Virus record (IMG/VR): IMGVR_UViG_3300021590_000001
Coordinates: 1-45,462 of that record
Reading direction: 5' to 3' (one strand)
From: a virus
Length of the DNA: 45,462 nt
Shown here: piece after piece, positions 1,114-44,505 of the stretch
Layout: each line of letters starts with the position of its first letter
Numbering within the stretch: position 1 is the stretch's first letter
Notes under the pieces: model-generated
What the model was told of the DNA's origin: nothing
The model's database searches: none
The model's input: only the letters and a program-made list of their open reading frames with translations
Program-made: the position numbers and the translations under genes

Positions 1114-1254
1114 ATGACAAAATGTCCTAAATGTGGGAGCACTGAAGTCTACAAGTTAGGAGAGAATTTCGACGGAGAATTCTTCGAGTGCTTAGACTGT
1201 AATTGCCATTTCACTCGCTACTATGATGGCAAAACAGAGATATGGGATAGTTAA
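1114..1254 (+). CDS. 46-residue zinc ribbon protein
   Basis: Short gene with ATG at 1114 and TAA at 1252-1254. It has CPKC at residues 4-7 and CLDC at residues 26-29, separated by an 18-residue beta-rich loop, which is a classical zinc ribbon. A tail FTRYYDG with aromatic residues follows. The fold resembles TFIIS/TFIIB-like ribbons that bind nucleic acid or protein partners. It sits 4 bases after the preceding gene. The function is unknown. Confidence 0.65.
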   Translation: MTKCPKCGSTEVYKLGENFDGEFFECLDCNCHFTRYYDGKTEIWDS

Positions 1255-1270
1255 GCAGAGGAGGGATAGC

Positions 1271-1594
1271 ATGAAAATTTTTATAGCTCATTCTTTAGGC
1301 TTGACAAATAAAGCCATTAAATATGCTGTAGCTTTGGAAGCTGAAGGCTGTGAGACATATGTTCCTGGAAGAGATACTCCTCAGAATTTGCCAGCTGAAG
1401 AAGTATACAAAAGGAATGTCGATGCTATAAGGAATGCTGATGAAATCCATGTGATCTGGGACGGTGCCAGCTACGGCACAATATTTGACATAGGAGCAGC
1501 TTATGCTCTGAACAAACCTATCTTAGTGGTGTATGTTAAGCCTCGAACCTGGTATTCTCATCTTAGAAAATACGAGGGAAACTTACTGCGTTAA
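1271..1594 (+). CDS. nucleoside 2-deoxyribosyltransferase-like protein
   Basis: Protein of 107 residues starting at ATG 1271, behind the ribosome binding site GAGGAGGG. It begins with a Rossmann-type strand (KIFIAHS) and later carries AIRNADEIHVIWDGAS and TIFDIGAAYALNKPILVV. This pattern belongs to the nucleoside 2-deoxyribosyltransferase/DUF4406-like superfamily: a nucleotide-binding loop near the N-terminus, then an acidic residue followed by a Gly-Ala helix. The catalytic Glu of true deoxyribosyltransferases appears here as Asp (FDIG), so base-exchange activity is uncertain. It could salvage or modify deoxynucleosides, or bind a nucleotide signal. It lies in the same operon as the AAA+ ATPase. 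Confidence 0.6.
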   Translation: MKIFIAHSLGLTNKAIKYAVALEAEGCETYVPGRDTPQNLPAEEVYKRNVDAIRNADEIHVIWDGASYGTIFDIGAAYALNKPILVVYVKPRTWYSHLRKYEGNLLR

Positions 1595-2847: not shown

Positions 2848-5504
2848 TCGATTACCTCCTCTGTTGAAATAGCAACAGGCTTAAATTCTTGAGTAGCTAT
2901 CTTGACAGGCAAAAATTCAGTCAGAATTAGTTTGAGAATTTTAGCTATTAAGCTTATTAACGTTATGACATCTAGAAGCTGTATTTGATCTTTGACTACT
3001 AATTCTTTGTGGGCGAGAATTTGTTCAGATAATTTCAGAGCATCACGTACAACCTTTACTATCTGGATTATTTGTACAGTGTCAGTTAAGCCTATTTGAT
3101 CTGCTATTATGAAAAGCTTGCTGGCTATTACAGATTCCAGTAATGATATTTGATCTTGAACTTTGAAGATTTTATTTCTTAAAACTGCTTCGCTCAACGT
3201 TACAGAATCCTGAATTAAGAAGTTTTTATGTCTTAAAATTTCTTCTAGTAAGGAGATACTATCTAATATAGCAAAAACTTTTTTATGCCTAAGAACTGAA
3301 TCACTAAGTGAAATGTTGTCAGAAACAATTTTGAGTATTGTTTTAATTACGTTAACTAAATCGGAGAGGGAAATGCCATCTGAGACTGCGAAGCTTTTGC
3401 CTCTGATGATTTGCCCAGTTAATTGTATTACATCAGGAATTGTCAACATTTTGTACGTCAAAATTTCATCGGAAAGCCCAATGTTGTCTATTACAGTTTT
3501 AAGTATTCCCTTTAGCACAGTTATTGCATCTGAAATTGAAATTGAGTCGGTGACTGTCAATGATTTGTCTCGTAAAACTTGTTCTGCACTTATTTGAATT
3601 AAGTCTGAAATTGTAAGGTTTTTGTCAATGATAGCTTGGTCTGTTAATTCAATGCTGTCGGTTACTGTTTTAAAAATCTGTTTGATTACATTTATGAGGT
3701 CGCTTAACAATATTGTATCAGGAATAACAAATGATTTATCACATAAGATTTCGTCTAATAATTGCATTGTATCGGTTACACTGAATACTTTGTGTGTAAA
3801 GATTGAATCTGAAGCATTTATTAAATCGGTTATTGAAAATGATTTATCCCGAAACAGCTGCTCTGAAAGGCTTATCAAGTCTGAGATCGTTACGGGCTTG
3901 TTTCTTAAGATTTGCTCAACAAGCTGAATTAAATCTGGAACTTTAAGGATTTTGTCGCTAAGAACGAAATCTGAAAGGTTTATTGAATCTGTTAGATCAA
4001 ATATCTTGTTGCGCAAAATCTGATCTGAAACACTCATTTGGTCTGAAATGATTAAGGATTTGTTTCGCAGTATCTGGTCAAGTAATTGTATAGCATCTGC
4101 AATTCCAAGAGTTTTGTCTCTAAGCATAGAATCAATCGCATTGATTACATCTGTAATTGTGAATGTTTTATGTCCGAGAGCTTGGTCAGATGCGCCTATT
4201 GAGTCGTTTATAGTCAAGGTTTTATGGCGGAGAGCAGAGTCGGAAAGAGAAACTGAATCGGTGACTGTAACCTCGATTGCCCCGGCTTCAGCTGTGTAAG
4301 TGCAGTAAATACTCATTTTATATGCGTAAAAAACTGCGGGATTCCACGGGTCTGGCCAAGAATTATAAGTAACCGAGGGTTGTATGCCCATCTTATCATC
4401 TTCGGTGTCGGTGTCATAACGCAAAAAAAGACAATTCGAGCTAGTTGGAATGTATTTTCCCCATATACACAGCCAATAATCCACATTTTCCAGAGAAGGT
4501 TTCGGAGTCGGGAAGTTGAGGGTATTCCACTGGTGTGTCGTCGAAGCGTTTATTTCCTCCGTTCCCGCTACTAAAGAATTATCACTCTTTTTGTATAAAG
4601 CACATTTAATTGGGTCTGCGGCATCTCTGTGGCAGTAAATTGAAATTGAATCTGCAGTTCCTTGTTCGGGGCATGTATACCAAGAACCATAAATAGTATC
4701 AGGTCCACCAGTGACTTCTGAGGCTCCTATTGTTTCGTATCCAAACGTTGGGTCTATCGTAACAGGATAAACAGCTTTTTCCAAAAACTCCTGTGGAATT
4801 GTAACCGTCAACAAGCCTTTAGCTTCATCAACATGCAAGTCGCACCAAGTTGTGTTTCCAGCAGAATCAGTTGCTTTTGGACGGTAAATGTGGAATGCCT
4901 TTCCAGTCCTATACTTTTCAGCGTCAGCTTTGTTTCTATGCATGTTGCCTTTTGTAGCGTGATAAACAGCGTAGGAGCCAACGACTTCAGGCGGACGGAA
5001 AACAACAACTACTCCATCTTTAACAGCATAAGTTTCAGTAACTTCATCATATTCATCTGAATTCAATTCTTCAGTCAACGGCGGTTGATAATAAAACTTT
5101 AATCCCTTCGTCTCTATCCTAAAATTGAAAGAGTTAGTCGGCGGTTTCTCTTTTAATATAGCTTCAAACTCTAACCCGCCAAGCTCATTCTGAATAAAAA
5201 CATGTTCTTTATTGCCGATTCTCACTTTTCTTTCCTTTTTGTCTACTGGATAAACTTTAACTGTGAACCAGTCGCCTTCCCAGACTATATAGTTGTTTTC
5301 TTCGTCAAACTTTAACTGTTTAGCTGTTGTTCCTATAGGAAGTTTGATGTAGCATTCTCCAAGCCAGCGTTTAAGTAAGCATTGAGGCTTGAATTGTATA
5401 GTTTCTGTTGGATCACCTATGCAGACTTCATCATTGCTGTGAGTAAAAAAACGGTAGGCTTTTTTCCCTTTAACCTTTTGTAATCTAAGTCTGTTAGTTG
5501 ACAT
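2844..5504 (-). CDS. large repeat-containing tail fibre protein (886 aa)
   Basis: Large virion protein. The N-terminal ~400 residues are beta-rich and include an AVYPVTIDPTF motif near residue 240, which recurs in phage structural proteins. A carbohydrate-binding-like jelly-roll segment follows, around residues 250-405. From about residue 410 to 850 the protein is built of roughly twenty copies of an imperfect 20-residue unit with consensus xIxDxIxLSDxILRxKxF. The units lack Cys or Pro and predict alternating short strands and helices. The last ~30 residues are hydrophobic then acidic. With the Ig-like gene downstream and the GDSS structural gene upstream it forms a leftward cluster separate from the main tail operon. 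A receptor-binding fibre or long spacer is the best guess. The repeats could also vary in copy number. Confidence 0.7.
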   Translation of the reverse strand: MSTNRLRLQKVKGKKAYRFFTHSNDEVCIGDPTETIQFKPQCLLKRWLGECYIKLPIGTTAKQLKFDEENNYIVWEGDWFTVKVYPVDKKERKVRIGNKEHVFIQNELGGLEFEAILKEKPPTNSFNFRIETKGLKFYYQPPLTEELNSDEYDEVTETYAVKDGVVVVFRPPEVVGSYAVYHATKGNMHRNKADAEKYRTGKAFHIYRPKATDSAGNTTWCDLHVDEAKGLLTVTIPQEFLEKAVYPVTIDPTFGYETIGASEVTGGPDTIYGSWYTCPEQGTADSISIYCHRDAADPIKCALYKKSDNSLVAGTEEINASTTHQWNTLNFPTPKPSLENVDYWLCIWGKYIPTSSNCLFLRYDTDTEDDKMGIQPSVTYNSWPDPWNPAVFYAYKMSIYCTYTAEAGAIEVTVTDSVSLSDSALRHKTLTINDSIGASDQALGHKTFTITDVINAIDSMLRDKTLGIADAIQLLDQILRNKSLIISDQMSVSDQILRNKIFDLTDSINLSDFVLSDKILKVPDLIQLVEQILRNKPVTISDLISLSEQLFRDKSFSITDLINASDSIFTHKVFSVTDTMQLLDEILCDKSFVIPDTILLSDLINVIKQIFKTVTDSIELTDQAIIDKNLTISDLIQISAEQVLRDKSLTVTDSISISDAITVLKGILKTVIDNIGLSDEILTYKMLTIPDVIQLTGQIIRGKSFAVSDGISLSDLVNVIKTILKIVSDNISLSDSVLRHKKVFAILDSISLLEEILRHKNFLIQDSVTLSEAVLRNKIFKVQDQISLLESVIASKLFIIADQIGLTDTVQIIQIVKVVRDALKLSEQILAHKELVVKDQIQLLDVITLISLIAKILKLILTEFLPVKIATQEFKPVAISTEEVIE
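3000..4290 (-). repeat. tandem 60-bp / 20-residue repeats within fibre gene
   Basis: The DNA encoding the C-terminal half of the fibre repeats with a period near 60 bases. On the plus strand each unit shows a degenerate core like AAATCTGAAAT...TTTGTCTCTTAAAAT. Units differ at many third positions, so the array is old rather than a recent expansion. At several points the 20-residue register is broken by a 12-16 residue insertion (for example INVIKQIFKTVTDSI), giving a superperiod of longer units. Confidence 0.75.
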
Positions 5505-5524
5505 ATCTGAAGCTCCAGTGAGAA

Positions 5525-6067
5525 TTAGCTGAATGTTATTTGCAGTTCAAGCGTCCAAGTTTCACCGGAGGCTTTGGTTCCTTTGTCAGCAACTTTGCGG
5601 TTCAAGTTTTTCCCTGTGTCATCGGATGCATTGACAACTGTAAATTCCTGCCAGGAGAAATTAGCATCGTCTCCACCGAATGTTGCTCTCCATATTGCAG
5701 TTTGATTGCTTTTCTGAGGATATCCTGTGTCCATGGCTTTGTATGCTTTATTTGTTCCTAGAAGCCCTGTTTGTGAAGCGTCTTCTGCTGAACTTGAGTC
5801 TCCGACTCCCAAACGTGCATTTGTATTATCCCATAAAGTCGGCGAGCCTAAGCCGCAGATTATGTCAATTAGCTCTTCTAATCCTTCATTTAAAGCTACG
5901 TTTCCTTCATGTACGCTTATGTCTGGCTTTATTCCGAATCGTTCAATTATTTTGTTTATTGATGCACCGTTCCTCAGAGCATTATAAACTTCTTTAGAAG
6001 CTTTGCCCCAGTTGTACCTTGTCCAGCGAGCTTTCCAAGGGCCTAATTTTTCATTTACAGTTTTCAT
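5525..6067 (-). CDS. virion structural protein with LGVGDSS motif
   Basis: Protein of 180 residues. The helical N-terminal third (KARWTRYNWGKASKEVYNALRNG) is followed by NTNARLGVGDSSSAEDASQTGL, a WRATFGGDDANFSW segment, and a C-terminal beta region with LNRKVADKGTKASGETWTL and a final TLELQITFS strand. This combination, with LxVGDSSxAExxxQTGL and a closing TWTLxVxITxS strand, is recognisable in many phage structural proteins found near tail or fibre genes. The start ATG has AAAGGAGCTGGG upstream and a TATA box about 50 bases away. It is the first gene of the leftward fibre cluster. Confidence 0.7.
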   Translation of the reverse strand: MKTVNEKLGPWKARWTRYNWGKASKEVYNALRNGASINKIIERFGIKPDISVHEGNVALNEGLEELIDIICGLGSPTLWDNTNARLGVGDSSSAEDASQTGLLGTNKAYKAMDTGYPQKSNQTAIWRATFGGDDANFSWQEFTVVNASDDTGKNLNRKVADKGTKASGETWTLELQITFS

Positions 6068-7180: not shown

Positions 7181-7820
7181 GAAACTTAAAGAGTTAGACT
7201 TGAATTGCCCAGAGTATTTATTCTTAGAAAACTACCATGACATAAACAAGCTTGAGCCTGGAGCTGAGTACAGCATAAGAAGTATACCTAAGAAAGACTT
7301 CCCTGCATTCGCAAAGCATTCGATAATGAAAATCCTGTCTAAGAACTTCTCTTACGTAGAGCCTCATTGGCCTCCTCATGCTTATTATATTCTGGGGAAC
7401 GAAGCTAAAGGTTTCTGCTCAATATTGCTTGCTTTAGGCATTCAACCTATGGTTTGCAAGCTTATAGATCCTGATGATGCAGTTTTTGCTGGCGCTGCTA
7501 TAAGAGAGGAGAATTCAATAATAATAGAGATAGCTATTGGCCCTGTTATGGTTAGAAAAGTAACCAGAGACGGAGAAGTAGATTTCTCGTTTAGCTATCA
7601 TATTAGTGAAGTTGATGCAATAGAGGAGAAACTGAAAACTTTGCCTAATGAAGTTAAAGAAGGACTGCTTAAAATAGCTATAGAGATAGCTGAGAAATTA
7701 CCTGAGAAGCATATAATTGAGCTTTCATATTATCGTATTCCCATAGGTTGGAAACAAGAGAAGCAGATATATTGGGATATTTACAGTGCTTCTAATGCTC
7801 TTGAGGAGCTGAAGTGGTGA
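7158..7820 (+). CDS. ATP-grasp-like domain protein
   Basis: Protein of 220 residues. Segments recall the PEP-synthase/PPDK-type ATP-grasp fold: LNCPEYLFLENY as opening strand, YSIRSIP where kinases of this class have YSxRS, PHAYYI, then GIQPMVCKLIDPDDAVFAGAAI and SIIIEIAIGPVMVRKVTRDGEVD, which corresponds to the IVIExxxGxxxxVTxxG strand pair. These are pattern resemblances read by eye, so the call is tentative. If right, it would be a small phosphotransferase or ligase acting on a nucleotide or base adduct, which would suit the adjacent methyltransferase and ThyA-like gene. It overlaps both neighbours. Confidence 0.4.
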   Translation: MGSRKAIEKLKELDLNCPEYLFLENYHDINKLEPGAEYSIRSIPKKDFPAFAKHSIMKILSKNFSYVEPHWPPHAYYILGNEAKGFCSILLALGIQPMVCKLIDPDDAVFAGAAIREENSIIIEIAIGPVMVRKVTRDGEVDFSFSYHISEVDAIEEKLKTLPNEVKEGLLKIAIEIAEKLPEKHIIELSYYRIPIGWKQEKQIYWDIYSASNALEELKW

Positions 7821-8602
7821 TGGAGGAGACAAGGTATATAACAAAGTACGGAGGAAAGCTGAATTTAACTCTTTGTGATCCGTACCAGCTCTGTGAAAAG
7901 CGCAAACGAATTCATCGAGACTACCTTGCTCACTTGTTCCGTTTTTACTTTGTCGGTCGCTTAATCAAGAGAGGAATGAAAATTTTAGATGTAGGAGCAG
8001 GAGTTGGTGCCTTAGCAGAAACTTTATACCGTAATATGTTAAAGCCTGAGCATTACGTAGCAGTAGAAATCAAGGATAGCTTTGTGCAAAAACTACAAGA
8101 TTTAGCTGCTAAAGTAAACTTTAGATTTGACATTATACAAGCAGACATAAGAAAAAGTTTATTCGCTACTGGCTTCCATGAATATTTCGACGTAGTATGC
8201 TGCTTCGAAGTCATTGAACATTTCGAGTCTTACTGGGACAAGCCTGAATACTTAACTAATGTTCTTGAACAGATGAAATATGCTGTTAAACCAGAAGGAG
8301 TCATACTTCTAAGCACTCCTAACTTCGATGGAAAACATAAAGCTAAGAACCATATTTATGAATACACTGAGGGAGAATTAGAGACAATATTTCAAAAGCA
8401 CGCATTAAAAATAGAAAAGAAATTCGGTACTTTCATGAGCTTAGGTCGGCCTAAGCAAGCCAAGCAGATTCTGAGTAAATGTGAATATGAAGTCTACAGA
8501 AAGCTCTATGAATACTATAATAGCTCAATACTTAGCGTTATGTTTGCTCCATTACATCCAAGTGAATCTAGAAATATCCTCTGGGTTTTAAGAAAGAAGT
8601 GA
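7820..8602 (+). CDS. class I SAM-dependent methyltransferase
   Basis: Protein of 260 residues starting at ATG 7820, which overlaps the upstream TGA. Motif I is ILDVGAGVG at about 54-62, the acidic end of strand 2 is VAVEIKD, motif II/III is IIQADIRKS, and motif IV is FDVVCCFEVIEHF. The VKPEGVILLSTPN strand after helix D is typical of UbiE/Methyltransf_11-type enzymes. No DPPY/NPPY or PC motif is present, so it is not an ordinary DNA base methylase. A small-molecule, nucleotide, lipid or protein substrate is more likely. Neighbouring nucleotide enzymes make a role in base modification possible. Confidence 0.8.
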   Translation: MEETRYITKYGGKLNLTLCDPYQLCEKRKRIHRDYLAHLFRFYFVGRLIKRGMKILDVGAGVGALAETLYRNMLKPEHYVAVEIKDSFVQKLQDLAAKVNFRFDIIQADIRKSLFATGFHEYFDVVCCFEVIEHFESYWDKPEYLTNVLEQMKYAVKPEGVILLSTPNFDGKHKAKNHIYEYTEGELETIFQKHALKIEKKFGTFMSLGRPKQAKQILSKCEYEVYRKLYEYYNSSILSVMFAPLHPSESRNILWVLRKK

Positions 8603-8606
8603 TTAA

Positions 8607-9524
8607 ATGTCTAAAATAATCGAGGGAGTAAGCCAATTAGACGTTATCAAGAGAGCTGCCGATACACTGTTTACATTTGCTACTCCTGAAGAACGTGTTG
8701 TTGGAGATTGGTGCATGCAGAAAGCAGAGAAAGTGATGATGGCAGAGCTTTTGAACGTAGTGTTCCAAGTGAAAAAACCAGGATTTCGCTGGCATACAAT
8801 GCTTAGGAGAGGGAATCTCTTAGAAACTTTAGATTACTTACTGGGTTTAAATCCTGGATTCTGCTACAACATGATTAAATTCTACCAGAAGTGGATCGAG
8901 AAATATAACGGTATTTTGATTTATTCATACGGAGCTAGAATTCAAGGGACAGAGCCTTACCCAGCTGACTTTGAAGCTAACCAGCTGGATCAATGGTCAA
9001 CTATAGCAGTTAAACTAAAGGAAAACCCTACTAGCCGCCAAGGAACAATGGTTATTAGAAGGCCTGTAGATGTTTTGAGAGCCGATACTCCATGCACTAT
9101 TTGCTACCACTTTCAAATTCAGTGGAATAAGTTATACATGACTACATTCATGAGATCTTGTGATATTCTCTATGGCTTGCCATTTGATTTGTTCTCTCAG
9201 AGCATGTTCTTTGAGCAAATGTCTTTAGCTTTAGGTGTGCCTATGGGAGCTCAGACTCTCTTTGTAGCTAACTTCCATGCTTACGAGAATCAATGGAGAC
9301 GAGCATTAAAGACTATAAATGCTGCTGAAGGCTTCTACAAGGAGAGGAAAGGAACTTACATTGTAGGTGAAAAGCATGGGAGAATTTTCAAGATCCTCTC
9401 CCAAGTTAAAGAGTGGCCCAAGAACAGGTATCTCAGAGAAGATGAACTTAAAGAATTCCTTGAATCTGATGGTGATTACTGGCTAGACTACTTAAAGCTT
9501 ATAGGGTTAAACAAAAATGAGTAG
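8607..9524 (+). CDS. thymidylate synthase-fold enzyme, probable dCMP-type (hydroxy)methylase
   Basis: ThyA-superfamily enzyme of 305 residues, using a folate cofactor to add a one-carbon group at C5 of a pyrimidine nucleotide. Visible landmarks are an SRxGTMVIRRPVD stretch (143-155) for phosphate binding, the catalytic Cys163 in TPCTICYHFQ, RSCDILYGLPFD (183-194), and the His224/Tyr226 pair in NFHAYEN. Ordinary thymidylate synthases have LPFN at the last position, and that Asn selects dUMP. Here it is Asp194. Asp at this site is the hallmark of T4-type dCMP hydroxymethylase, so dCMP is the predicted substrate. The His normally following the catalytic Cys is Thr. The start uses GTGAT upstream. 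It overlaps the UDG gene by 8 bases. The alternative is a divergent thymidylate synthase fed by the dCMP deaminase at 20231. Confidence 0.8.
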   Translation: MSKIIEGVSQLDVIKRAADTLFTFATPEERVVGDWCMQKAEKVMMAELLNVVFQVKKPGFRWHTMLRRGNLLETLDYLLGLNPGFCYNMIKFYQKWIEKYNGILIYSYGARIQGTEPYPADFEANQLDQWSTIAVKLKENPTSRQGTMVIRRPVDVLRADTPCTICYHFQIQWNKLYMTTFMRSCDILYGLPFDLFSQSMFFEQMSLALGVPMGAQTLFVANFHAYENQWRRALKTINAAEGFYKERKGTYIVGEKHGRIFKILSQVKEWPKNRYLREDELKEFLESDGDYWLDYLKLIGLNKNE

Positions 9525-10200
9525 CAAAACAAAATTGAGTAACAAGCTAATACCTGACCATATACCATTAGACTATGCAGCTAAGCAAAAAGAGCGCTTA
9601 GAGAAGAACTGGAGCAAATTCCCTCCGCCATTAAGAGAGCTCTTGGAGAAAGTTAAGCAATGCAGGAAATGCCCTGAATTAGTCAAGAGCAGGGAAATGT
9701 ACTTGTATAGTGAGCCTACATTCGGCTACGGAAATCCGGACAGCCCTGTTGTCTTAATAGCTCAAGCGCCGGGATGGCTAGGATGTGGAACTACAGGATT
9801 TGTCTTTGAGCCCTTAAGCAGGACAGGGAAAATTTACGAAGCAGTATTGAAAGCTGCAGGGTTAAGCTTTGAGCATGTCTACACAACAAACTTAGTTAAG
9901 TGCTGCCCTAGAGGATCTGATGCTCCTACGAAGCAGCAGATAAGAAACTGCGAAGTCTACTGTCTACGCGAGATTAAATTAATTAATCCGTTTAGCATAA
10001 TAGCTGTAGGCAAGCTCCCTTGGGATTTTGTAATGAGGAACAAGCTTTACAAAGATTATAAGTGCCACCGAGTGTTCCATCCAGGATACATTCTAAGGAA
10101 AGGCTTTGGTATTGACAGGTACATAAGCTCATTTGCTGCTTTGCTAAGAAGTGAATACAAGAAGGGAGCTTCTAAGAAAGGCTTGAGGAGATGGCTGTAG
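9517..10200 (+). CDS. uracil-DNA glycosylase superfamily protein (family 4/5-like)
   Basis: Protein of 227 residues. Four Cys that could hold an iron-sulfur cluster begin with CRKCP at 51-55 and continue with the Cys residues in KCCP and NCEVYC. Motif 1 is LIAQAPGWLGCGTTG (family 4 has GEAPG, family 5 GLAPA). The strand TTNLVKCCPRGSDAPT follows, and motif 2 is HPGYILR near 190. It would excise uracil or another damaged base from DNA. Divergence in both motifs leaves the exact base specificity open, and a virus that alters its cytosines might use it for specificity or host DNA attack. It is tightly coupled to the ThyA-like gene. Confidence 0.8.
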   Translation: MSSKTKLSNKLIPDHIPLDYAAKQKERLEKNWSKFPPPLRELLEKVKQCRKCPELVKSREMYLYSEPTFGYGNPDSPVVLIAQAPGWLGCGTTGFVFEPLSRTGKIYEAVLKAAGLSFEHVYTTNLVKCCPRGSDAPTKQQIRNCEVYCLREIKLINPFSIIAVGKLPWDFVMRNKLYKDYKCHRVFHPGYILRKGFGIDRYISSFAALLRSEYKKGASKKGLRRWL

Positions 10201-14053: not shown

Positions 14054-15169
14054 TTGAAGAAAGTAGAAAAATGGCTAGCTAAACTAGCCAAAGAAAGAAA
14101 TTTAGAATTGGAAAGATTGAGGGAAGAATATGCACTGATAAGAAACGATTTGGAGAAGCGAGGAATCCAAGGAGACTTAAACGCTATAGCAAAAAACATG
14201 CTCATGGTGAAGTACAGAGAGTACAAGACTCTTAAGAGAAAGAGAAAGTACCCGCTGGAGAATTTTGTAGGCTTCAAGATAGGAGATGTAGGCTTAACTG
14301 ATGATGCTCAGAGAATGAGAGAATGGGCCAGGTATGTTGTAGACAGGTACGGCTTGGAGTATGCAAAGCAGCAAGGCTTAGTTGAAGAAAGAGAAGATGA
14401 AATAGTAGTCCTAGACACAAGGAAGACAATATTCGGCAGAGAGAACAAGAACTATGGCAAACCATTGCCTCCAGACTTGAAGCTTAGGCGTCGAGACTTG
14501 ATATTCTTAGCGAAGAAAGCCGACGACGAAGAATTCATGTTCACGAGGATCCAGACCAAAGACAACAAGCTTGCAGTGGCTTGGGGAGATGTGCCGTTCC
14601 ATGTTCCAGTGTCTTTTACAGCTGCTGTCCAAACAGCTGATGCTTCTGGGTATTTGCTATCAAGCTCCAGTGCTAAAGCTACAATGACGATTTTCAGAGA
14701 GATAAAGGAGAAGTGGGATGTCTACAAGATTTTCAAGAAGTGGGCAGACGAGAATTTGACTCCTATACAAGATGCTCTAAAGTTCCATGAAGCAACCAAA
14801 GATGCTTGGGACCGCTGGATACTCCTGAAAGGAATAGTGGCTTCTATAAATTTTGAGAATGAAACTTACCGTGGCATACCAGCTACTTTAGTGGACAGTG
14901 AAACAGGCTACAGCGCTGAAGACTCAATATTGTTCTATATACCTGACCATTTGAAAGTGAACTTTGGCGTGTACAGCGAAATCTATTTGCTGGGCAAGAC
15001 CAGAGGTATCCAAGAAGTAGATGAAGAAACTGGAACTAAATTCACTGTCGACGTCACTGTTGATGCTTGGGGATTCTTCCCTGTCCCAGGCAAGAGCACT
15101 GAGCCTCAAGAGAGCTTGCTCGAAGAAGAGGGAGAAGAGGAGATTAAAGGCTTCATACCAGCTGAGTGA
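14054..15169 (+). CDS. probable single-stranded DNA-binding protein (RPA-like)
   Basis: Protein of 371 residues. TTG 14054 is chosen because AGGTGAT lies just before it. The N-terminal ~65 residues are a charged helical region. At least two beta-rich segments follow (around residues 70-190 and 265-350, including FKIGDVGL, LDTRKTIFG, IPATLVDSETGY and TVDVTVDAWGFFPVPG) that could be OB folds. The extreme C-terminus is acidic (SLLEEEGEEEIKGF), as in many SSB proteins where the tail recruits partners. Its place between the XPF nuclease and nucleotide genes supports an SSB role, but no motif proves it. Confidence 0.45.
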   Translation: MKKVEKWLAKLAKERNLELERLREEYALIRNDLEKRGIQGDLNAIAKNMLMVKYREYKTLKRKRKYPLENFVGFKIGDVGLTDDAQRMREWARYVVDRYGLEYAKQQGLVEEREDEIVVLDTRKTIFGRENKNYGKPLPPDLKLRRRDLIFLAKKADDEEFMFTRIQTKDNKLAVAWGDVPFHVPVSFTAAVQTADASGYLLSSSSAKATMTIFREIKEKWDVYKIFKKWADENLTPIQDALKFHEATKDAWDRWILLKGIVASINFENETYRGIPATLVDSETGYSAEDSILFYIPDHLKVNFGVYSEIYLLGKTRGIQEVDEETGTKFTVDVTVDAWGFFPVPGKSTEPQESLLEEEGEEEIKGFIPAE

Positions 15170-15173
15170 GAGC

Positions 15174-15509
15174 ATGCCTGGGCACCCCAGATTCCACGAG
15201 CTTCTCGAGGAGATAAGGGAGCTTCACAACAGGAAGAATGCTGACTACTCTGAAGAAAACAATCCTTTGAGCAACTTCTACGAGTGCGAGAGATTCAACA
15301 TCCCTGCGTGGAAAGGCTGTTTAGTCAGGATAAGCGACAAAACCAGCAGAATCTTCAGGCTGGCTGCTAAAGAAGGGAAAGCTGAAGTTAAAAGCGAGAG
15401 CATAATTGACACTCTCAAAGATCTGGCTGTCTACAGCTTGATATGCATAATTCTTTATGAAAAAGCTTGTGGTTCGGATGTGCGAATGCCAGAGAATACC
15501 CTTGGCTAA
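15174..15509 (+). CDS. DUF1599-like (nucleotide modification associated) protein
   Basis: Protein of 111 residues starting at ATG 15174. The sequence HELLEEIRELHNRKNADYS, NPLSNFYECERFNIPAWKGCLVRISDKTSRI and IIDTLKDLAVYSLICIILYE closely follows the family found in phages and named nucleotide modification associated domain 1 (DUF1599). Conserved features are the H-x-RKNxDY helix, the NFxxxxxF-xxPxW stretch and the RxSDKxxRI helix ending in a DTLxDLAxYxxI helix. The fold is all-alpha, related to MazG-like NTP pyrophosphatases. Its family is linked in phages to synthesis of modified bases, which fits the dCMP-type ThyA gene upstream. Confidence 0.7.
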   Translation: MPGHPRFHELLEEIRELHNRKNADYSEENNPLSNFYECERFNIPAWKGCLVRISDKTSRIFRLAAKEGKAEVKSESIIDTLKDLAVYSLICIILYEKACGSDVRMPENTLG

Positions 15510-16586: not shown

Positions 16587-17327
16587 ATGCCAAGAGAAAT
16601 TGGCGTAGAAGAGCAGGAAAGTGAAGTGGAATACCTCGGGTACGCGGAAGAATGGCTCGACAATCTAATAAACAACGTCAAGCCTATACTAGCTAAAATA
16701 GCAGAGGATACTTTCACGAGGTATCGGCAAATAGGAAAGATGATTCTGAAGTCAGGATACAAGAAAGGGCAGTGGAAATCGAAACACAAGAGGAAATTCA
16801 TTAAAGAATTGGGTATTAGCGGCTCAACATTCAGCTTATTTGTTCGCTTAGCTGAAATAAACGAGAAGGAGTTTAAGAAAATCAAAGACACTTACAGCTC
16901 AGTAAACGAGTGGTACCGAAGAGGAAAACCTAAGCAAATCAGCGATGAACGCAAAGCTTTGCTAAGCAGCTTGATAGAGAACTTCCCTGAGCAAAGCCAG
17001 GAGATAAAAGAGATTCTGAGGACGGAGAAGCCTTACTTAAAGGAGAAAGACTTAGGGGAGTTCTCAAGGAAAGTCTTCTTAGGCAACCAGACTCCCATGG
17101 AAGCATTCGTTAAGTACTACTACTTAACCAGCGATTCGAAAATTAAATTGCCTATATGGATACTGGTGGGTTTCCAAATATACCTTGAAAAAACAGGCTT
17201 GGACCAAGACTTGGACGCTACAATATTCTCAGCTCTAAATGACATTCTCTTAGATGAAGGAATAACCCAAGATGAAATAGAGAAAGCAGCTAAAAACATG
17301 CTCAGATCAGAGTGGGGAATCCAGTGA
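16587..17327 (+). CDS. putative HTH DNA-binding protein
   Basis: Protein of 246 residues. The N-terminal half is helical, with a segment YRQIGKMILKSGYKKGQWK followed by KRKFIKELGISGSTFSLFVRLAEI, which reads as a helix-turn-helix (ELGISGSTFSLFVRL). The region YSSVNEWYRRGKPKQIS resembles DUF3102/replication-initiator-type phage proteins. The C-terminal half is helical and acidic. Its position directly upstream of and overlapping DNA polymerase suggests a regulator or replication-initiation factor. No catalytic motif is seen. Confidence 0.5.
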   Translation: MPREIGVEEQESEVEYLGYAEEWLDNLINNVKPILAKIAEDTFTRYRQIGKMILKSGYKKGQWKSKHKRKFIKELGISGSTFSLFVRLAEINEKEFKKIKDTYSSVNEWYRRGKPKQISDERKALLSSLIENFPEQSQEIKEILRTEKPYLKEKDLGEFSRKVFLGNQTPMEAFVKYYYLTSDSKIKLPIWILVGFQIYLEKTGLDQDLDATIFSALNDILLDEGITQDEIEKAAKNMLRSEWGIQ

Positions 17328-19939
17328 AAGTCTCAATAATAAATGCTGTATACTATCCTATTAAAGGTAGAGCTTCTGAACCAGCTAGGCCAGGAGTGGC
17401 TTTAATAGGCAGAGACATAGAGACTAAAGCTAAAGTCTACTATGCTTGCTCTGTTGATCCACATTTCTACGTTGAAGACTGGATTCTTAAAGGAGTTGAC
17501 TTAGCAGCGTTAAGGAAGCTTGGAGCCAAAAAAATTGAGTACAGCACAAAAAGGACTCTGTCTAATCGGCTTACCAGAAAAATCAGCGTGCGTAAATGCT
17601 CAAATGTAGATGAAATACTGACTTACTTAAGGAAAGTCTGCCGAGCTCGAGCTTACGAAGCTGACTTAGCTAAGGTTTCTGGCTTGCCAATAAGGTTCCT
17701 TACAGAGCACCATTTAACCAGCGGCTTTGAAGTTAAAGACGGCGATATGTACCCAGCTGATGTTGAGCCTGTGCTCAGATACTGGCTCTTTGACATAGAG
17801 TGGATAAGCTCCAGAGCTGCATCTGTAGACGCTAGGAGAGATGAGCCTATAGTTTTGTTCTCTTGGTACGACAACTTCGATGACAAAATATTCACTGTGT
17901 ACTGGCATGAGAGAGATTTTCAAGCTCTCTCCAACACCCATAAAGTTTACAAAGCTAAGTGTGAAAAGGAGCTTCTTTATGAAGTGCAAAAGAATCTTGA
18001 AGAGCAGAATCCAGACTTGCTCGCTGCCCACAACTTGTATCGAGCAGATTTAGCTAAGTGGTTCTCCAGGATGCTTAAACATCGAATGAATCTTAATCTG
18101 CTTAGCCCTAAGCCTTTTAGGAAAGTGAGCATGTATCCTAGGACAACGATTAAAGGGAGAGTCCTCTTCGATGTTCTCTCAGCGTTCAAATTGTACACAA
18201 ACAAAGAGCTTGCCAGGTACAGCTTAGAGTATATTGCTGAGCATGAGAAATTAGGAGTCCCTAAGATTCCTCTGAAAGGCACTACTTCTAAGTATTGGAA
18301 CGATGAAATTAGTATAGATGTAACTTTAATACCTGAAGAAGCTGAGAAGTATTTGCCTGAAGAAGTACCCTCAAGCTTTGTCCTTTATTTAAGAAATTAC
18401 CTTGACGTATTAATACTTAAGCTGCTCGAAGACAAGCACTCCCTCATAAACTTCTTTGCTAGCTTGAGAGCTTTTGCAGGCTGCTTGTTTGAAGACACTT
18501 TCTTCAAGTACAAAATCTACGATGCTGCTTTGCTGAGGATGTGCAGCAATACAGCTTTGCCTACTGCTGGTCGCTACTCGGGGAGCGGTGGTTTCAGAGG
18601 AGCTTTAGTTATTGAACCTGAGCCTGGAATCTACGACAATGTAGTCTGCATAGACTTCAAGAGGCAGTACCCAATGATAATCAGAGGGATGAACATAAGC
18701 CCTGAGACTTTTGCAGGAGTGGAATACAAAGACCCTGGAAATTTCGCTAAGAGGATGCTCAGGAAAGGTTATTGTGTAGCTTACAATGAGAGAGCAGCAT
18801 ACGCATTCAAGAGCAAGCCTAAAGGGATAATGGTGAAGCTTGTAGAATACTACTGGAAGCAGAGAGACCGCTTCGAGGAAGCTGCTCTAAGAGCTGCTAA
18901 AGCAGGGGACAGAGAAGCAGAGAAAATAGCTAAAAGGAAAGCATTCCAAACAAAGCAGATTCTGAATTCAGCATTTGGGGTTACAAGCTACTCAGCATTT
19001 AGGCTCTACAAAAGAGAGTCATGTGCTGCTATACCTTTCATGGCTAGAATAGGAAGTGAGAAGACTCTCAGTAAATTAAATAGCAGAGGATACAGAGTCC
19101 TCTATGGAGACACAGATTCAATGTTCTTTATCTCTTCGGAGGGCATTGAACAGCTTAAGCAGCTCATAGATGAAATCTCAGCAGAATTAAACAGGGAAGC
19201 TAAGGAGAAATGGAATGCTAAAAGAGATTTATTTGCTCTTGACTTGCAGAGAATCTACAAGAAGTTCATAGTCCTTACTAAGAAGAGATATGCAGGCTTG
19301 TACATGTGGGACTCAAAAGAAGGCTTCACTGAAGGCTTCGAGTGGAAAGGCTTAGAAGCCATAAGGAGTGACTCCAGCGTTCTTGAGCGTACTGCTCAAA
19401 GAGAAGTCATTACGATGCTTCTTAGAGAGAAACGTAAAGAGGAAATCCTTGAATATGTAAAAGGCGTACTCAGGAACATAGACAAGAGAGCTTATCCTCT
19501 CATAGAAGTAGGTTTCCCTGAGAAAATAGGCAAGCGCTTCAAGATGGCCAAAGGCAAAATAGTTGAGTATGGCTATGGCAATCGAGCTCCAGCAAACGTA
19601 AAGGCTGCATTCTACAGCAATTTGTACTTAGGCACTGATTACTCTTCTGGAGATAAGCCGATTAGACTACCAATAATACCTGGTAAACTATCAAGCTTTC
19701 CTAGGCGATTCACGATGGTTATCAAGTATTCCTCTCGGGAATACGAGTGTAAATGGATAGCCATAGATGAAAGCTTAGAGATACCGGAAGAAATAAAGAA
19801 TGCTGTGGACTGGAACAAAATAAAAAGCAGGTTCCTGAACAAAATGTCTCCTTTGCTTAAGCTAGCAGGGATAGAAATAAGCGAGTTAGAGCCTAAAGAG
19901 AATTTGAACAGGTGGATTAAATGTGGCGAAGTGGACTAA
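17312..19939 (+). CDS. polB: family B DNA polymerase
   Basis: Protein of up to 875 residues from GTG 17312. GTG 17324, which overlaps the upstream stop, is an alternative. The 3'-5' exonuclease is present: motif I FDIEW near residue 160, motif II region AAHNLYRADL near 240, and motif III NYLDVLIL near 363. Polymerase motif A is DFKRQYP at about 448 (usual DxxSLYP, so Ser-Leu is replaced by Arg-Gln), motif B is KQILNSAFG around 549, motif C is YGDTDS around 600, and KKRYAGLY follows. All catalytic Asp are intact, so it should be active with proofreading. It is not protein-primed in type, as no TPR1/TPR2-like insertions are obvious. No intein is seen. This is the replicative polymerase of the virus. 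Confidence 0.95.
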   Translation: MGNPVKVSIINAVYYPIKGRASEPARPGVALIGRDIETKAKVYYACSVDPHFYVEDWILKGVDLAALRKLGAKKIEYSTKRTLSNRLTRKISVRKCSNVDEILTYLRKVCRARAYEADLAKVSGLPIRFLTEHHLTSGFEVKDGDMYPADVEPVLRYWLFDIEWISSRAASVDARRDEPIVLFSWYDNFDDKIFTVYWHERDFQALSNTHKVYKAKCEKELLYEVQKNLEEQNPDLLAAHNLYRADLAKWFSRMLKHRMNLNLLSPKPFRKVSMYPRTTIKGRVLFDVLSAFKLYTNKELARYSLEYIAEHEKLGVPKIPLKGTTSKYWNDEISIDVTLIPEEAEKYLPEEVPSSFVLYLRNYLDVLILKLLEDKHSLINFFASLRAFAGCLFEDTFFKYKIYDAALLRMCSNTALPTAGRYSGSGGFRGALVIEPEPGIYDNVVCIDFKRQYPMIIRGMNISPETFAGVEYKDPGNFAKRMLRKGYCVAYNERAAYAFKSKPKGIMVKLVEYYWKQRDRFEEAALRAAKAGDREAEKIAKRKAFQTKQILNSAFGVTSYSAFRLYKRESCAAIPFMARIGSEKTLSKLNSRGYRVLYGDTDSMFFISSEGIEQLKQLIDEISAELNREAKEKWNAKRDLFALDLQRIYKKFIVLTKKRYAGLYMWDSKEGFTEGFEWKGLEAIRSDSSVLERTAQREVITMLLREKRKEEILEYVKGVLRNIDKRAYPLIEVGFPEKIGKRFKMAKGKIVEYGYGNRAPANVKAAFYSNLYLGTDYSSGDKPIRLPIIPGKLSSFPRRFTMVIKYSSREYECKWIAIDESLEIPEEIKNAVDWNKIKSRFLNKMSPLLKLAGIEISELEPKENLNRWIKCGEVD

Positions 19940-20255
19940 GGAAGACGATGAAATACTCAGGAAATTGTACCCTACTTACGACATCGACGTTATCCTTGAC
20001 GCTCTAGGAGGAAAATTCTCTTGGCATGCGGTCAGAATTCGAGCTTCTTTATTAGGCTTGAAGAGAATAGGGAGAGGTGGAAGCCGTGGAGAAAGCAAAT
20101 ATGAAGGAATGGCTTACTGCTCGAAATGCTCTAAGTGGATTCCTAAAGAGAAAGTTAAAAACTACCGCTGCCCTTACTGCGGCAGGAAAGTTAGGTTCCC
20201 AGGCCCACTCAGCTACAGGAGGAAGAGGAAATGGAGGAAAGAAAAGAAAGAATAA
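19923..20255 (+). CDS. SANT/Myb-like HTH plus zinc ribbon protein
   Basis: Protein of 110 residues with GTG start 19923, overlapping polB by 17 bases. Residues 3-48 (WTKEDDEILRKLYPTYDIDVILDAL, WHAVRIRASLLGLKR) form the tryptophan-led SANT/GcrA-like three-helix DNA-binding unit. Residues 66-90 hold a zinc ribbon, CSKC and CPYC, and the end is highly basic. The related two-copy protein at 21307 lacks the ribbon. A role as a site-specific DNA-binding or transcription factor is inferred. Confidence 0.65.
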   Translation: MAKWTKEDDEILRKLYPTYDIDVILDALGGKFSWHAVRIRASLLGLKRIGRGGSRGESKYEGMAYCSKCSKWIPKEKVKNYRCPYCGRKVRFPGPLSYRRKRKWRKEKKE

Positions 20256-20770
20256 GCAAGACTGAATACTACTTGAGGATAGCAAGCATGGTGGCTATGC
20301 GCTCGACATGCTTAAAAGTAAAATTCGGTGCTATAATAGTAGACGATGACGGAGTGATACTGTCTACAGGATACAACGGCTCTGCTCGAGGTAGCTTCAA
20401 CTGTGATGATTTAAACTATTGCTTACAGGAGCATTTGGGAAGCAGAGGCTTCTTTGACTACTGCATTGCAGTCCATGCAGAAGAGAATGCTGTAATAAAT
20501 GCAGCCAGATCAGGAGCTAAAATCAAAGGAGCTACACTTTACTTGGCAGCTGCAGCAGATTCAACTCCTAAACAGATCGAGAGAGCTTATGGATGGTTAA
20601 ACAAAGGGCCGTGCTTCCGCTGCAGAAGAATCTTAATAAATGCGGGAATCAAAGAAGTTGTAACGCCTTATAAGCGCTGGACTTTCAACGATTTGGTGAA
20701 CTTAGAGAGGAAGTGGTTCGAGGATGCTTACAGAAAAGCAAGAGAAAGAGAGAGCAAAGAAGCTCTTTAA
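20231..20770 (+). CDS. deoxycytidylate (dCMP) deaminase
   Basis: Zinc-dependent deaminase of 179 residues that converts dCMP to dUMP. The zinc site is HAEENAV (His and catalytic Glu, about 82-88) and GPCFRCRRI (the two Cys, about 126-134). The N-terminal helix YYLRIASMVAMRSTCLK and the VKFGAIIVDDDGVILSTGYNGS segment are typical of ComEB/dCMP deaminases, and so is the inserted NCDDLNYC region with extra Cys that may bind a second zinc. The gene overlaps the one before by 25 bases. It would feed dUMP to a thymidylate synthase or balance the pool used by the dCMP-type ThyA enzyme. Confidence 0.92.
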   Translation: MEERKERISKTEYYLRIASMVAMRSTCLKVKFGAIIVDDDGVILSTGYNGSARGSFNCDDLNYCLQEHLGSRGFFDYCIAVHAEENAVINAARSGAKIKGATLYLAAAADSTPKQIERAYGWLNKGPCFRCRRILINAGIKEVVTPYKRWTFNDLVNLERKWFEDAYRKARERESKEAL

Positions 20771-40656: not shown

Positions 40657-41050
40657 GTACCCGGTTAAGCGTGAGCACTGGAGAGAGCCTCCATACATAT
40701 TGCCTAGCGGATTATGGGTTATACCTCAAGGCAGACGCTCGATAATGTGCGAAATGGGCTTCCACAAATTCGTTACTAAAACAGTCTTCGGTGTGCCATA
40801 CTTGGTCTGCACCAGATGTGGCTATATAGCTCCTAAGCCTGTCTTAGAGCATACAGCAACTAAGAAAGAGCTTATAATTAAAATCCAAAAGGAAATGGAC
40901 AAGCAGAAGCCTACTCTGCCTACTCACCCAATTAAGACAGATGAGCTTAAGCGAGCTAAAGAAAAACTCATAGAGAGAGTCTGGGAGGAATACCAAAGCA
41001 AATACAAGAGGAAGCGAGGCAAACTAATCAAAGTAGGTGAGAAGCGTTGA
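40643..41050 (+). CDS. hypothetical zinc-binding protein
   Basis: Protein of 135 residues overlapping the portal gene by 14 bases and the nuclease-ligase gene by 4 bases. CEMGFHKF (Cys36, His41) and CTRC (56-59) may bind one zinc (C-x4-H ... CxxC). The C-terminal half is basic and helical (KRAKEKLIERVWEEYQSKYKRKRGK). Coupling to the giant DNA-repair fusion suggests a partner, but no family is known. Confidence 0.55.
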   Translation: MSTVRYPVKREHWREPPYILPSGLWVIPQGRRSIMCEMGFHKFVTKTVFGVPYLVCTRCGYIAPKPVLEHTATKKELIIKIQKEMDKQKPTLPTHPIKTDELKRAKEKLIERVWEEYQSKYKRKRGKLIKVGEKR

Positions 41051-44000
41051 TTAAAGTCCGCTTTGATGTTCCTCCATCTAGATTCCCAAAAGGAGACAAG
41101 GGAAATAAGCGCTTGTACTTTGAGTATATGCTTCTAAGGCACAGCTTTGCTCAGAAGCTTAAAGACCCTAAGAAAGGCCTCAAAGCCAGCTTAGAAGAGC
41201 ATGCTAAATATTACATACTTATACTTGAGGAAATGAAGAGGAGAGGGCTTAAAATCCCAAAGCCTACTGGCCATCCTATAGAAAGGTATGCAAGGCAATT
41301 CAGCGATGTTGTCCCGGTTAAAAAGAATATGTCTGAATTAGGACATATCCTTAAAGCAAATGCAGTTTACTTAATTAGCCATGCAAAAGAAGTCTACAAT
41401 GGAACAAAAACTCTCTGGGTGACAAAGAAGCCTTATCCAAACATGCTAAAGAAGCCTTTGTACTTAGCTGGAGACGGAAAAGTCTGGGGCAAAGTAATCT
41501 TGCTCAGCATCACTCCTATATCGCTAAAGGAATTCAAGGAGCTCAGAGCCTTGCATAGAGTAACAGAAGAAGAGAGGAAGAAGTGGTGGCCTAAAGCTAA
41601 GAAATTCTATGCTTACTCATTTAGATTCGAGAAATTCAAGGAGCCTTGGACTTTCCTAGGCTTGCCTAAAGGACCACAAGTCTTCTTTACTCTTACAGAT
41701 AAAATGGTGAAGAAAAGCTCAAGCTCAATACATTTCGAATTTATAGGCACAAAAGGAGATGTAGAGTTTCCTCCTAAGCTTACATCTGGAGAGCCTTGCA
41801 GAGCAGATTGGTGCAAAGATCCAGTTAACCTAAAGAGGAAGCATTCAGGCTTGCTCATAGACAATTCAATACTCATAGACGGATGCGGCTTAGATTGGAA
41901 GGACAGCAAAATAAAGCCTAAAGCTGTTCTCTTGACTCATTTGCATCCAGACCATGCTGGAGCTCTCTGGGAAGGACAAGAGAGCTCGTTCAAAGAGTAC
42001 TTAATCAAGAACAGGATTCCTATACATGTATGGAAAGGCTCCCTTGAAATCTCAAAGCCTGTTAAATCTTTAGATAAAAGATTAAGAGTGCTTAAGCATC
42101 AAAGCAGAAGCAGATTCACCGTTCAAGGGCACACTTTCCGCTTCTTCCCTGTCTACCACTCGAAGACTGCTCCATGTGCAGCCATTCTCATAGATGAGCG
42201 GATGCTCTACAACCCTGACTTTTTAGCCTGGAAAGGAGGCAATCCTTTCAAGGACTACAAGATTGACTTGTACATAGGAGACGGCTCATGCATGAAAGTG
42301 GACATTAAAAGGCCTGAGAAAGTAGGGCACATGTCAATGGTTAACCAAGTAAAAATGTGCAGCAAAGCAGGAGTAAAGCATGTAAAGTTCACTCATGTAG
42401 GCCACTTATACCAAACTCATGAGGAAGCCAAAGAGACTCTGAGAATCATAGCTAGGAGCAAAGGCTACTATGAAGACCCAGATAAAGTCTACATAGCTGA
42501 AGATGGAGACTACGGTGAATTATTGCCTGATGGCTCAATAAAGTGGAAAGGCAAAAGCATAGAGAAGAAGAGCTTCTACAAGCCTAACAAGCCTTACTGG
42601 AGAGAGTTTGAGCCTGAGAAAGTAGCTGATATACCAGGCTTCACCTTCCCTGCTAAAGTTGTAATGAAAATAGACGGAATGAGGATCCAAATAAACACTA
42701 AAGAGAAGACTTTGAGAAGCGAAGACGAAGGCTACCACAAAGAGAACAAGTTCAAGAAAATAATCAAAGAGCTTGACAAACTGCCTTACGACAGCATTTT
42801 CGACGCTGAAGGGATAATGGTCAGCGAAGATGGAGAACCCTTACACCGCACGAGCTTTATAGGCTACGTAAACGGCAAAGACTACGAGCCTGACAAAGAG
42901 GATAGATGCCGCTTTATGATATTCGATGTTTACCGCTACAAAGGTAAAGATGTAGTCAATCTTCCTTTCCAAGAGCGCCTAGAAATCTTGAAGAAAGTAA
43001 AGGATACAGAGCACTTTAAGATTCTTAGGGAAGGCAAACATTATAGAATTGTAAAGTCTAAGCTTGACTTAGTTAAAGCCATCAAGTGGGCTTCAGAATT
43101 GCCAGGCTCAGAAGGAGCAATGATAATATGGGACAAAAGAATAGAAACAGCCACAAATCAGAACAAAGCTTGGTGCAAACTCAAGAAATACAAAGAGATA
43201 GACTGCCTTGTAGTCGACAGGACGCATCCAAAGCACAAAGACACAGGAGAGGAAATCAAGACAGTCTGGAACTACATGATAGCTGCAGGCCCATATGAAG
43301 GCAGATGCGCTGAAATAGCCAAGAAGTATGCTCCCAAAGGGAAAGTTGTAATCAAAAGTGAAAGCAAAACATTGCCTGCAATGAAAGATTTCGATGAAGC
43401 CAAGGAGTCATTCCTGGAAGCTCAAGGAGTCATAGTTAAAGGGCAGAAAGTCTATGCTTATCTAGGAAGGACATTCAACACCAAGATTACTGCTCCTGTA
43501 GGAGGAATAATAAGAGTTGTTACACCAGAAGTCAACAAATACCCTATTCTGGATAAGAACGGCAAGGAGACAGGTTGCTACTACTACGGTGTTTTCCAGC
43601 CTCGAGTTGTCGAGTATGTCCACGAGAAAAATGTTCCTGATCGAATAGAAGTCCTAGACAGACTAGCTTCTCTGACTTTGCCTAGAGGAGTAAGCAAAGC
43701 TAAAACTTTGACCCATGAGGAGTATCTTAGAATCAGAGAAGAAGGAAGACCTCTCCCTCCAGAATACTACAAGTTTAAACCTCCATGTAATGGAAAGTGC
43801 AGAGGAGTAGTCCAGAGGCATTGGCCCACTGGCAAAATAGTGGAAGTCAAGAAAGGAAAAATATTAGCTCGAGAAGGCTACATAGCCAAAGCGTACTGGT
43901 GGGAAGGCAATGATTTGGTTGTAGAGTTTACAGGGCCAGAGGTAAAGAAAGAGTTCAACACAGACAGCATAATTCTGAAATTCAGAGATCACATAGACGT

Positions 44001-44505
44001 TAGATTAGAGAAGAACAAAGAGCTTATAGGCTTTACTGTTCATCCTCCGATTCCAGCAGGCAAGACTTCCTGGGATGTCTTCAAAGAAAGAATCGAAGAA
44101 GGAGAGAAGAGTCAAGTGACTGTGAAATATCCTCATCCTAAATCCTGGCTAACTTATGAAGGAGAACTTTTGTTCCCAACTTTGCATGGTGGGCATCGCT
44201 TGTCTGTAGCTAGGATAAAAATAATGGACAAATTCACTGTTAAATATGGTGTTCAAAGGAGAAATCTCCATGAATACTTCCTAGATGGAAACACTCTAAA
44301 AGGGCGCTTTGTTCTCAGAGTAATACTTTCTCCATCGACTAAGAAGCCTATATGGATTTTTGTTAGGCCTAAGAATGCTCAGTATCCTCTGAATCCTGTT
44401 GAGCACAAAGATGAAGGCTACGTAGATCTCATAAGGAATGACAAATTGACTCCTGAGATGGCTGAATCACCTAGAGAAGAGAAAGTTTTTGAAGCTGTAA
44501 GCTAG
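41047..44505 (+). CDS. MBL-fold nuclease / ATP-dependent DNA ligase / LigD phosphoesterase-like fusion
   Basis: Protein of 1152 residues from TTG 41047, behind AGGTGA. Four parts are readable. Residues 1-~230: helical start plus an ASCH/PUA-like beta region (LYLAGDGKVWGKVILL; LHRVTEEERKKWWP), function unknown. Residues ~265-500: metallo-beta-lactamase fold with THLHPDHAG (His298, His300, Asp302, His303), Asp412 in YIGDGS and THVGH (His450, His453), as in SNM1/Artemis and RNase J-type nucleases. Residues ~535-~760: ATP-dependent DNA ligase, adenylated Lys541 in KIDGMR, FDAEG (Glu588), FMIFDVYRY (IIIa), EGAMI (689-693) and CKLKKYKEIDCLVV (motif V). Residues ~965-1120: FRDHIDVRLE (His982, Asp984, Arg986, Glu988) and YFLDGNTLKGRFVL, which follow LigD 3'-phosphoesterase order. 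It would trim, heal and seal DNA ends in one chain. Confidence 0.82.
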   Translation: MIKVRFDVPPSRFPKGDKGNKRLYFEYMLLRHSFAQKLKDPKKGLKASLEEHAKYYILILEEMKRRGLKIPKPTGHPIERYARQFSDVVPVKKNMSELGHILKANAVYLISHAKEVYNGTKTLWVTKKPYPNMLKKPLYLAGDGKVWGKVILLSITPISLKEFKELRALHRVTEEERKKWWPKAKKFYAYSFRFEKFKEPWTFLGLPKGPQVFFTLTDKMVKKSSSSIHFEFIGTKGDVEFPPKLTSGEPCRADWCKDPVNLKRKHSGLLIDNSILIDGCGLDWKDSKIKPKAVLLTHLHPDHAGALWEGQESSFKEYLIKNRIPIHVWKGSLEISKPVKSLDKRLRVLKHQSRSRFTVQGHTFRFFPVYHSKTAPCAAILIDERMLYNPDFLAWKGGNPFKDYKIDLYIGDGSCMKVDIKRPEKVGHMSMVNQVKMCSKAGVKHVKFTHVGHLYQTHEEAKETLRIIARSKGYYEDPDKVYIAEDGDYGELLPDGSIKWKGKSIEKKSFYKPNKPYWREFEPEKVADIPGFTFPAKVVMKIDGMRIQINTKEKTLRSEDEGYHKENKFKKIIKELDKLPYDSIFDAEGIMVSEDGEPLHRTSFIGYVNGKDYEPDKEDRCRFMIFDVYRYKGKDVVNLPFQERLEILKKVKDTEHFKILREGKHYRIVKSKLDLVKAIKWASELPGSEGAMIIWDKRIETATNQNKAWCKLKKYKEIDCLVVDRTHPKHKDTGEEIKTVWNYMIAAGPYEGRCAEIAKKYAPKGKVVIKSESKTLPAMKDFDEAKESFLEAQGVIVKGQKVYAYLGRTFNTKITAPVGGIIRVVTPEVNKYPILDKNGKETGCYYYGVFQPRVVEYVHEKNVPDRIEVLDRLASLTLPRGVSKAKTLTHEEYLRIREEGRPLPPEYYKFKPPCNGKCRGVVQRHWPTGKIVEVKKGKILAREGYIAKAYWWEGNDLVVEFTGPEVKKEFNTDSIILKFRDHIDVRLEKNKELIGFTVHPPIPAGKTSWDVFKERIEEGEKSQVTVKYPHPKSWLTYEGELLFPTLHGGHRLSVARIKIMDKFTVKYGVQRRNLHEYFLDGNTLKGRFVLRVILSPSTKKPIWIFVRPKNAQYPLNPVEHKDEGYVDLIRNDKLTPEMAESPREEKVFEAVS

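Follow-up and report, generated by a model that had tools for sequence, protein, structure and literature searches.

The tailed archaeal virus analyzed here encodes a protein of the thymidylate synthase (TS) fold that is probably a folate-dependent dCMP 5-hydroxymethylase similar to gp42 of phage T4, which would feed 5-hydroxymethyl-dCTP (5hm-dCTP) to the viral family B DNA polymerase and protect the viral DNA. T4 hydroxymethylates dCMP to disguise its DNA, a strategy that is familiar in bacterial phages. The gene is located on the plus strand at 8607..9524 of the window, by which we mean the complete stretch of 45,462 nucleotides under study, a linear IMG/VR virus record. The reading frame is open from the ATG at 8607 to the stop at 9524 and gives a product of 305 amino acids.

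Fold and base-selecting position

The ThyA fold that the initial annotation had proposed for this gene is borne out by the Pfam model Thymidylat_synt (PF00303; 2.5e-17, 63.3 bits, cut-off 24.3) and by phrog_160 (4e-27), the best TS match among the phage families. In a PDB sequence search with phmmer, TS chains are among the matches and the CMP hydroxymethylase MilA ranks second. The protein has the TS fold and the catalytic Cys that were looked for as features of a T4 gp42-type dCMP hydroxymethylase; Cys163, Arg183, Ser184, His224 and Tyr226 are conserved, and the four residues named initially (Cys163, Asp194, His224, Tyr226) all stand where they had been placed. The C-terminal tail of TS, which closes on the folate, is absent, the protein ends with ...YLKLIGLNKNE, and the Pfam alignment covers the profile only up to position 222 of 266.

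The predicted structure points in the same direction. Prediction from the single sequence reached a pLDDT of 34.6, and a model built from 30 aligned rows gave middling confidence (pTM 0.70, pLDDT 67.7). The best PDB matches of this model are MilA (Z up to 19.7) and the phage dCMP enzyme 9iqu (Z 19.5, rmsd 2.8, 201 aligned residues), followed by TS chains (Z at most 17.4), a ranking that may be tilted because the rows behind the model are all of the Asp type. In the family tree the protein lies on a long branch, separate from the main clade of the Asp-type enzymes, and joins Jamzy; its exact placement was not used, because this partner is another long branch.

The segment RSCDILYGLPFD comprises residues 183-194. 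As claimed before, it aligns without gaps, to TS with phmmer and to TS and T4 gp42 with MAFFT, and in every alignment, including the full one with ThyA and T4 gp42, Asp194 occupies the position of the TS Asn. Its column holds Asn177 of E. coli ThyA, Asp179 of T4 gp42 and Asp186 of MilA, and Asn in SPO1 gp29 and in the TS rows from archaea and marine group II. The alignments comprised T4 gp42, SPO1 gp29, E. coli ThyA, archaeal TS and 36 phage relatives from IMG/VR; the latter were chosen by a motif containing the Asp, hence their Asp represents no independent evidence. Thr164 stands at the position of His147, so that both ThyA marks (Asn177 and His147 in E. coli numbering) are replaced in this protein. 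The enzymes characterized on dUMP, i.e. E. coli ThyA and the dUMP hydroxymethylase SPO1 gp29, have Asn at the selecting position, whereas the cytidylate enzymes T4 gp42 and MilA carry Asp (PMC5175136; PMC6400193), which agrees with the initial statement that Asn selects dUMP in TS and that the T4 enzyme has Asp there. In a metagenome phenotype screen, modified and unmodified phage contigs were best distinguished by two TS positions, 177 and 147 (PMC8670742). Moreover, a profile of the Asp-type enzymes matched MilA and T4 gp42 at 1e-44 to 4e-42 versus approximately 3e-31 for TS. Based on Asp194, Thr164, the phage relatives and the experimental literature on the selecting position, dCMP is well supported as the predicted substrate. 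A deoxyribose sugar is also predicted by Arg144 and Ser184, which agree with the enzymes that prefer deoxyribose.

Reaction product and alternative activities

Two marks have been described for hydroxymethylases (PMC6400193): an acidic residue (Asp or Glu) at the third position ahead of the catalytic Cys, and Ser or Thr at the second position ahead of the catalytic Tyr. The first is present as Asp160, three residues before Cys163, and corresponds to the water-activating Asp145 of T4, where TS has Leu; it is suggestive and not strictly diagnostic, because archaeal Asn-type enzymes (in G019 and G194) have Asp at this position, too. The second mark, Ser94-x-Tyr96 in T4, was not found in the protein, which has Tyr106-Ser107-Tyr108 with the Ser one and not two residues before the Tyr. 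Gly occupies this position in several further phage rows of the Asp type, hence this mark is not universal in the group. Due to its absence, our claim is that the protein works like a dCMP hydroxymethylase, not that it is strictly a member of the T4 type. It shares with T4 gp42 the TS fold, the Cys nucleophile, Asp at the selecting position and at Cys-3, Thr after the Cys and the lack of the TS tail, but the identity is about 25% over a short stretch, the Ser94 mark is not kept and the protein is 59 residues longer. The initial annotation had left the product open between 5-methyl- and 5-hydroxymethyl-dCMP; the dCMP part stands, and the choice now leans to hydroxymethyl by Asp160, Thr164, the missing TS tail and Asp186/Gly190/Tyr226. 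Judged from these residues, hydroxymethylation is the favoured reaction, methylation comes second and direct hydroxylation third.

Phage Xp12 has a dCMP methylase and 5-methylcytosine throughout its genome. A methylase of this kind would complete the reaction by hydride transfer to 5-methyl-dCMP, and the present virus would carry 5-methylcytosine throughout. The missing Ser(-2) hydroxymethylase mark is consistent with such an activity, according to Liu and Santi (1992; quoted in PMC8670742) exchanging the single Asn for Asp is sufficient to convert TS to the methylation of dCMP, and the halophage phiN is an archaeal virus with modified cytosine, in its case a full 5-methylation of the genome (PMC4284463). 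However, Asp160 in place of the TS Leu at Cys-3, Thr164 instead of His147, the loss of the folate-closing tail and the closer relation of sequence and fold to MilA and the phage hydroxymethylases make methylation unlikely.

An action on dUMP, either as TS or as dUMP hydroxymethylase, could be supplied by the viral dCMP deaminase (20231..20770, plus strand; PF00383 2.9e-18, phrog_174 2.8e-36, 2hvv 8.7e-14), which makes dUMP. The best curated NCBIfam model for the protein is indeed a methanogen-type TS (TIGR03283), but its 54.5 bits are far under the cut-off of 174.55. Known dUMP enzymes keep the Asn, whereas Asp194 and Thr164 are found here; SPO1 gp29 shares the superfamily, the Asp at Cys-3 and the Arg-Gln phosphate motif with the protein, but has Asn at both of these positions. 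The deaminase is also compatible with dCMP hydroxymethylation, since T4 encodes both a dCMP deaminase and its dCMP hydroxymethylase. Furthermore, the bin of the probable host contains ThyX genes, hence viral dTMP synthesis by the 305-aa enzyme is not obviously needed. Taken together, a dUMP substrate is quite improbable.

A direct hydroxylation of C5 might also be considered, the type of reaction found in Mosigvirus phages with arabinosyl-hydroxycytosine DNA. Such 5-hydroxy-dCMP synthases are TS homologues (PMC13390438), and share the TS fold and the Asp at the base-selecting position with the protein. One of them, AfhB of phage HY126 (9iqu/9iqc), was solved with dCMP and FAD under the title of a dCMP hydroxylase, and ranks second among the families matched by the structural model, above all TS chains. 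In contrast to the protein, two gp42 sequences, one of Mosigvirus and one of the related Kanagawavirus, have Glu at Cys-3, RSQN with Asn for Asp186, Val for Gly190, and Phe for Tyr226; the marks were read from these two sequences and not taken from a published signature, and both were typed by genus and divergence, not by assay. The Mosigvirus gp42 marks RSQN, Glu at Cys-3 and HxF were not found in the 305-aa protein, which keeps Asp160, Asp186, Gly190 and Tyr226, the residues of the folate-using enzymes. Direct hydroxylation is therefore very unlikely.

Neighboring genes and the proposed pathway

For the preferred dCMP hydroxymethylation, the following scheme can be proposed. Cys163 would attack C6 of dCMP, Asp194 would pair with and protonate N3 of the cytosine, and the methylene group of CH2-tetrahydrofolate would be transferred to C5. 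Water activated by Asp160, and not hydride, would then add to the exocyclic methylene to yield 5-hydroxymethyl-dCMP, which host kinases or unrecognized viral ones might convert to 5hm-dCTP. The family B DNA polymerase PolB (17312..19939, plus strand; PF00136 1.2e-34) is the likely user of the modified dCTP and would insert it in place of dCTP; the modified viral DNA could be shielded from host nucleases.

Some other genes of the window fit this scheme. The product of 15021..15509 (plus strand) resembles DUF1599, the nucleotide modification associated domain 1 (PF07659, 5e-4, under the cut-off; phrog_1485 of unknown function, 1.2e-17), and a dCTPase-like role for it is a guess. TS and dCMP deaminase genes were found together on modified contigs (PMC8670742), and in this regard the dCMP deaminase, the weak DUF1599 match and PolB fit a cytosine-replacing virus. 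Neither a glycosyltransferase nor an HM-dCMP kinase nor a firm dCTPase was recognized in the window, a record that may be incomplete. The virus thus differs from T4, with its glucosyltransferase, gp56-type dCTPase and gp1-type kinase, as well as in being archaeal. As neither a glycosyltransferase nor a dedicated HM-dCMP kinase could be recognized, we infer rather than state the presence of modified cytosine in the virion DNA.

The TS-like gene is flanked by two genes on the same strand. Upstream, a class I SAM-dependent methyltransferase (7814..8602; Methyltransf_23 2.2e-14; UbiG-like 2.3e-12, under the cut-off) ends 5 bases before it, for which a role in further base modification is possible. 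Downstream, a family-4-like uracil-DNA glycosylase (UDG) superfamily protein (9517..10200; PF03167 4.7e-16; NF040953 4.2e-21, under the cut-off; 1ui0 1.3e-15) overlaps the TS-like stop and has AQAPG instead of GEGPG as motif A. A rather bold reading would be that the methyltransferase alters the hydroxymethyl group, for example to 5-methoxymethylcytosine, while the UDG-like neighbor polices the genome, which would make it an undescribed base modification in an archaeal-virus lineage of dCMP hydroxymethylases; in one variant a methanopterin-type C1 carrier would be used and not folate. As a whole, including this variant, it is a long shot.

Finally, a MilA-like action on CMP to supply a precursor of a small molecule or of RNA, in which the nucleoside deoxyribosyltransferase-like gene near the left end of the window (1223-1594; Nuc_deoxyrib_tr, 2e-10) might serve as MilB counterpart, is scarcely credible despite the rank of MilA as top structural and second-best PDB sequence match and as closest solved fold with shared Asp186, Asp at Cys-3 and CT motif, because Lys133 and Ala176, by which MilA selects ribose and differs from the deoxyribose-preferring enzymes (PMC5175136), were not found in the aligned 305-aa protein, where Arg144 and Ser184 predict deoxyribose, and because the candidate partner is 7 kb away and belongs to a kind of gene known from tailed archaeal viruses (PMC8651126). 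Near the same end, an MT-A70 methyltransferase is encoded at 205-756 (1.3e-29). At 41047-44505, a chain of 1152 amino acids combines a metallo-beta-lactamase domain with an ATP-dependent DNA ligase or capping-type nucleotidyltransferase domain.

Virus, host and precedents

The window contains genes for RadA, an ERCC4 nuclease, an MCM-like ATPase, PolB, terminase, portal and capsid, and its terminase is closest to that of halovirus HGTV-1, which indicates an archaeal tailed virus. A Thermoplasmata MAG from the Guaymas Basin (G008) includes several contigs with DNA of 84-93% identity; judged by this binning, the host is probably a deep-sea Thermoplasmata archaeon. Among the ThyX genes of this bin, the second one (contig C80, L078, 841-1965) contains an in-frame insert of about 149 amino acids resembling a mini-intein. 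Searches of this MAG for FolD and MCH gave no match, which says little, as it has 1.1 Mb and may be incomplete. Some regions of the virus are represented twice in the bin, by the overlapping contigs C13/C71 and C49/C149, which suggests that it contains at least two strains of the virus group.

Among bacterial phages, enzymes of the Asp type are very common: a narrow motif search of IMG/VR retrieved 37 stretches with such enzymes, and relatives of T4 gp42 of Asp or Asn type occur in 1121 phage records. For archaeal viruses, the available part of a survey of tailed viruses lists ThyX as thymidylate synthase and does not list dCMP hydroxymethylase (PMC8651126), while ANME-1 viruses have ThyX and some itzamnaviruses ThyA (PMC9894754). 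The initial description of modified cytosine as rarely documented in archaeal viruses is fair; however, it has already been documented there, for the fully methylated phiN (1988) and for HRPV-3 (PMC4284463). In the literature and sequence collections searched, no earlier description of an archaeal virus with a dCMP hydroxymethylase was found. Hence, as far as found, the kind of enzyme is known and the host domain is new. Contig L064 of G244, which is binned with a Thermoplasmatota genome and carries an Asp-type gene, was rejected as second archaeal case, since its PolA-like and other genes look bacterial-phage-like; at 4451-5729 of that contig the Asp-type TS gene lies beside deaminase-like and HD-domain-like genes. 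If our reading is true, hydroxymethylcytosine-type DNA as in T-even and many bacterial phages would also exist in a tailed archaeal virus from hydrothermal sediment, the evasion of archaeal restriction or CRISPR through base replacement would become a testable question, and thymidylate synthase annotations in archaeal viruses would need to be checked for the Asp variant.

A scan of viral contigs with the single protein retrieved no close relative of the 305-aa enzyme, whereas the genome scan found one, on L026, which is among the contigs of the Thermoplasmata bin. It covers the last 125 residues (181-305) at 96% identity and keeps Asp194; over this part a dN/dS of 0.083 between both copies indicates that the gene is under purifying selection. 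In the other contigs of the virus group, all fragments that were found via the capsid protein and polymerase, the enzyme gene is absent. The UDG gene of L026 (371-1843, the counterpart of window 9517-10200) carries a 789-base intein-coding insert, which the window copy lacks. This intein has Ala as first residue and VHN at its end before Cys, and matches Pfam Intein_splicing at 1.1e-6, under the cut-off. Inside it, a LAGLIDADG homing endonuclease is encoded in another frame (888-1418). Resampling the synonymous codons of either frame, in 20,000 trials each, never left the other frame open, hence this double coding is unlikely to be due to chance.
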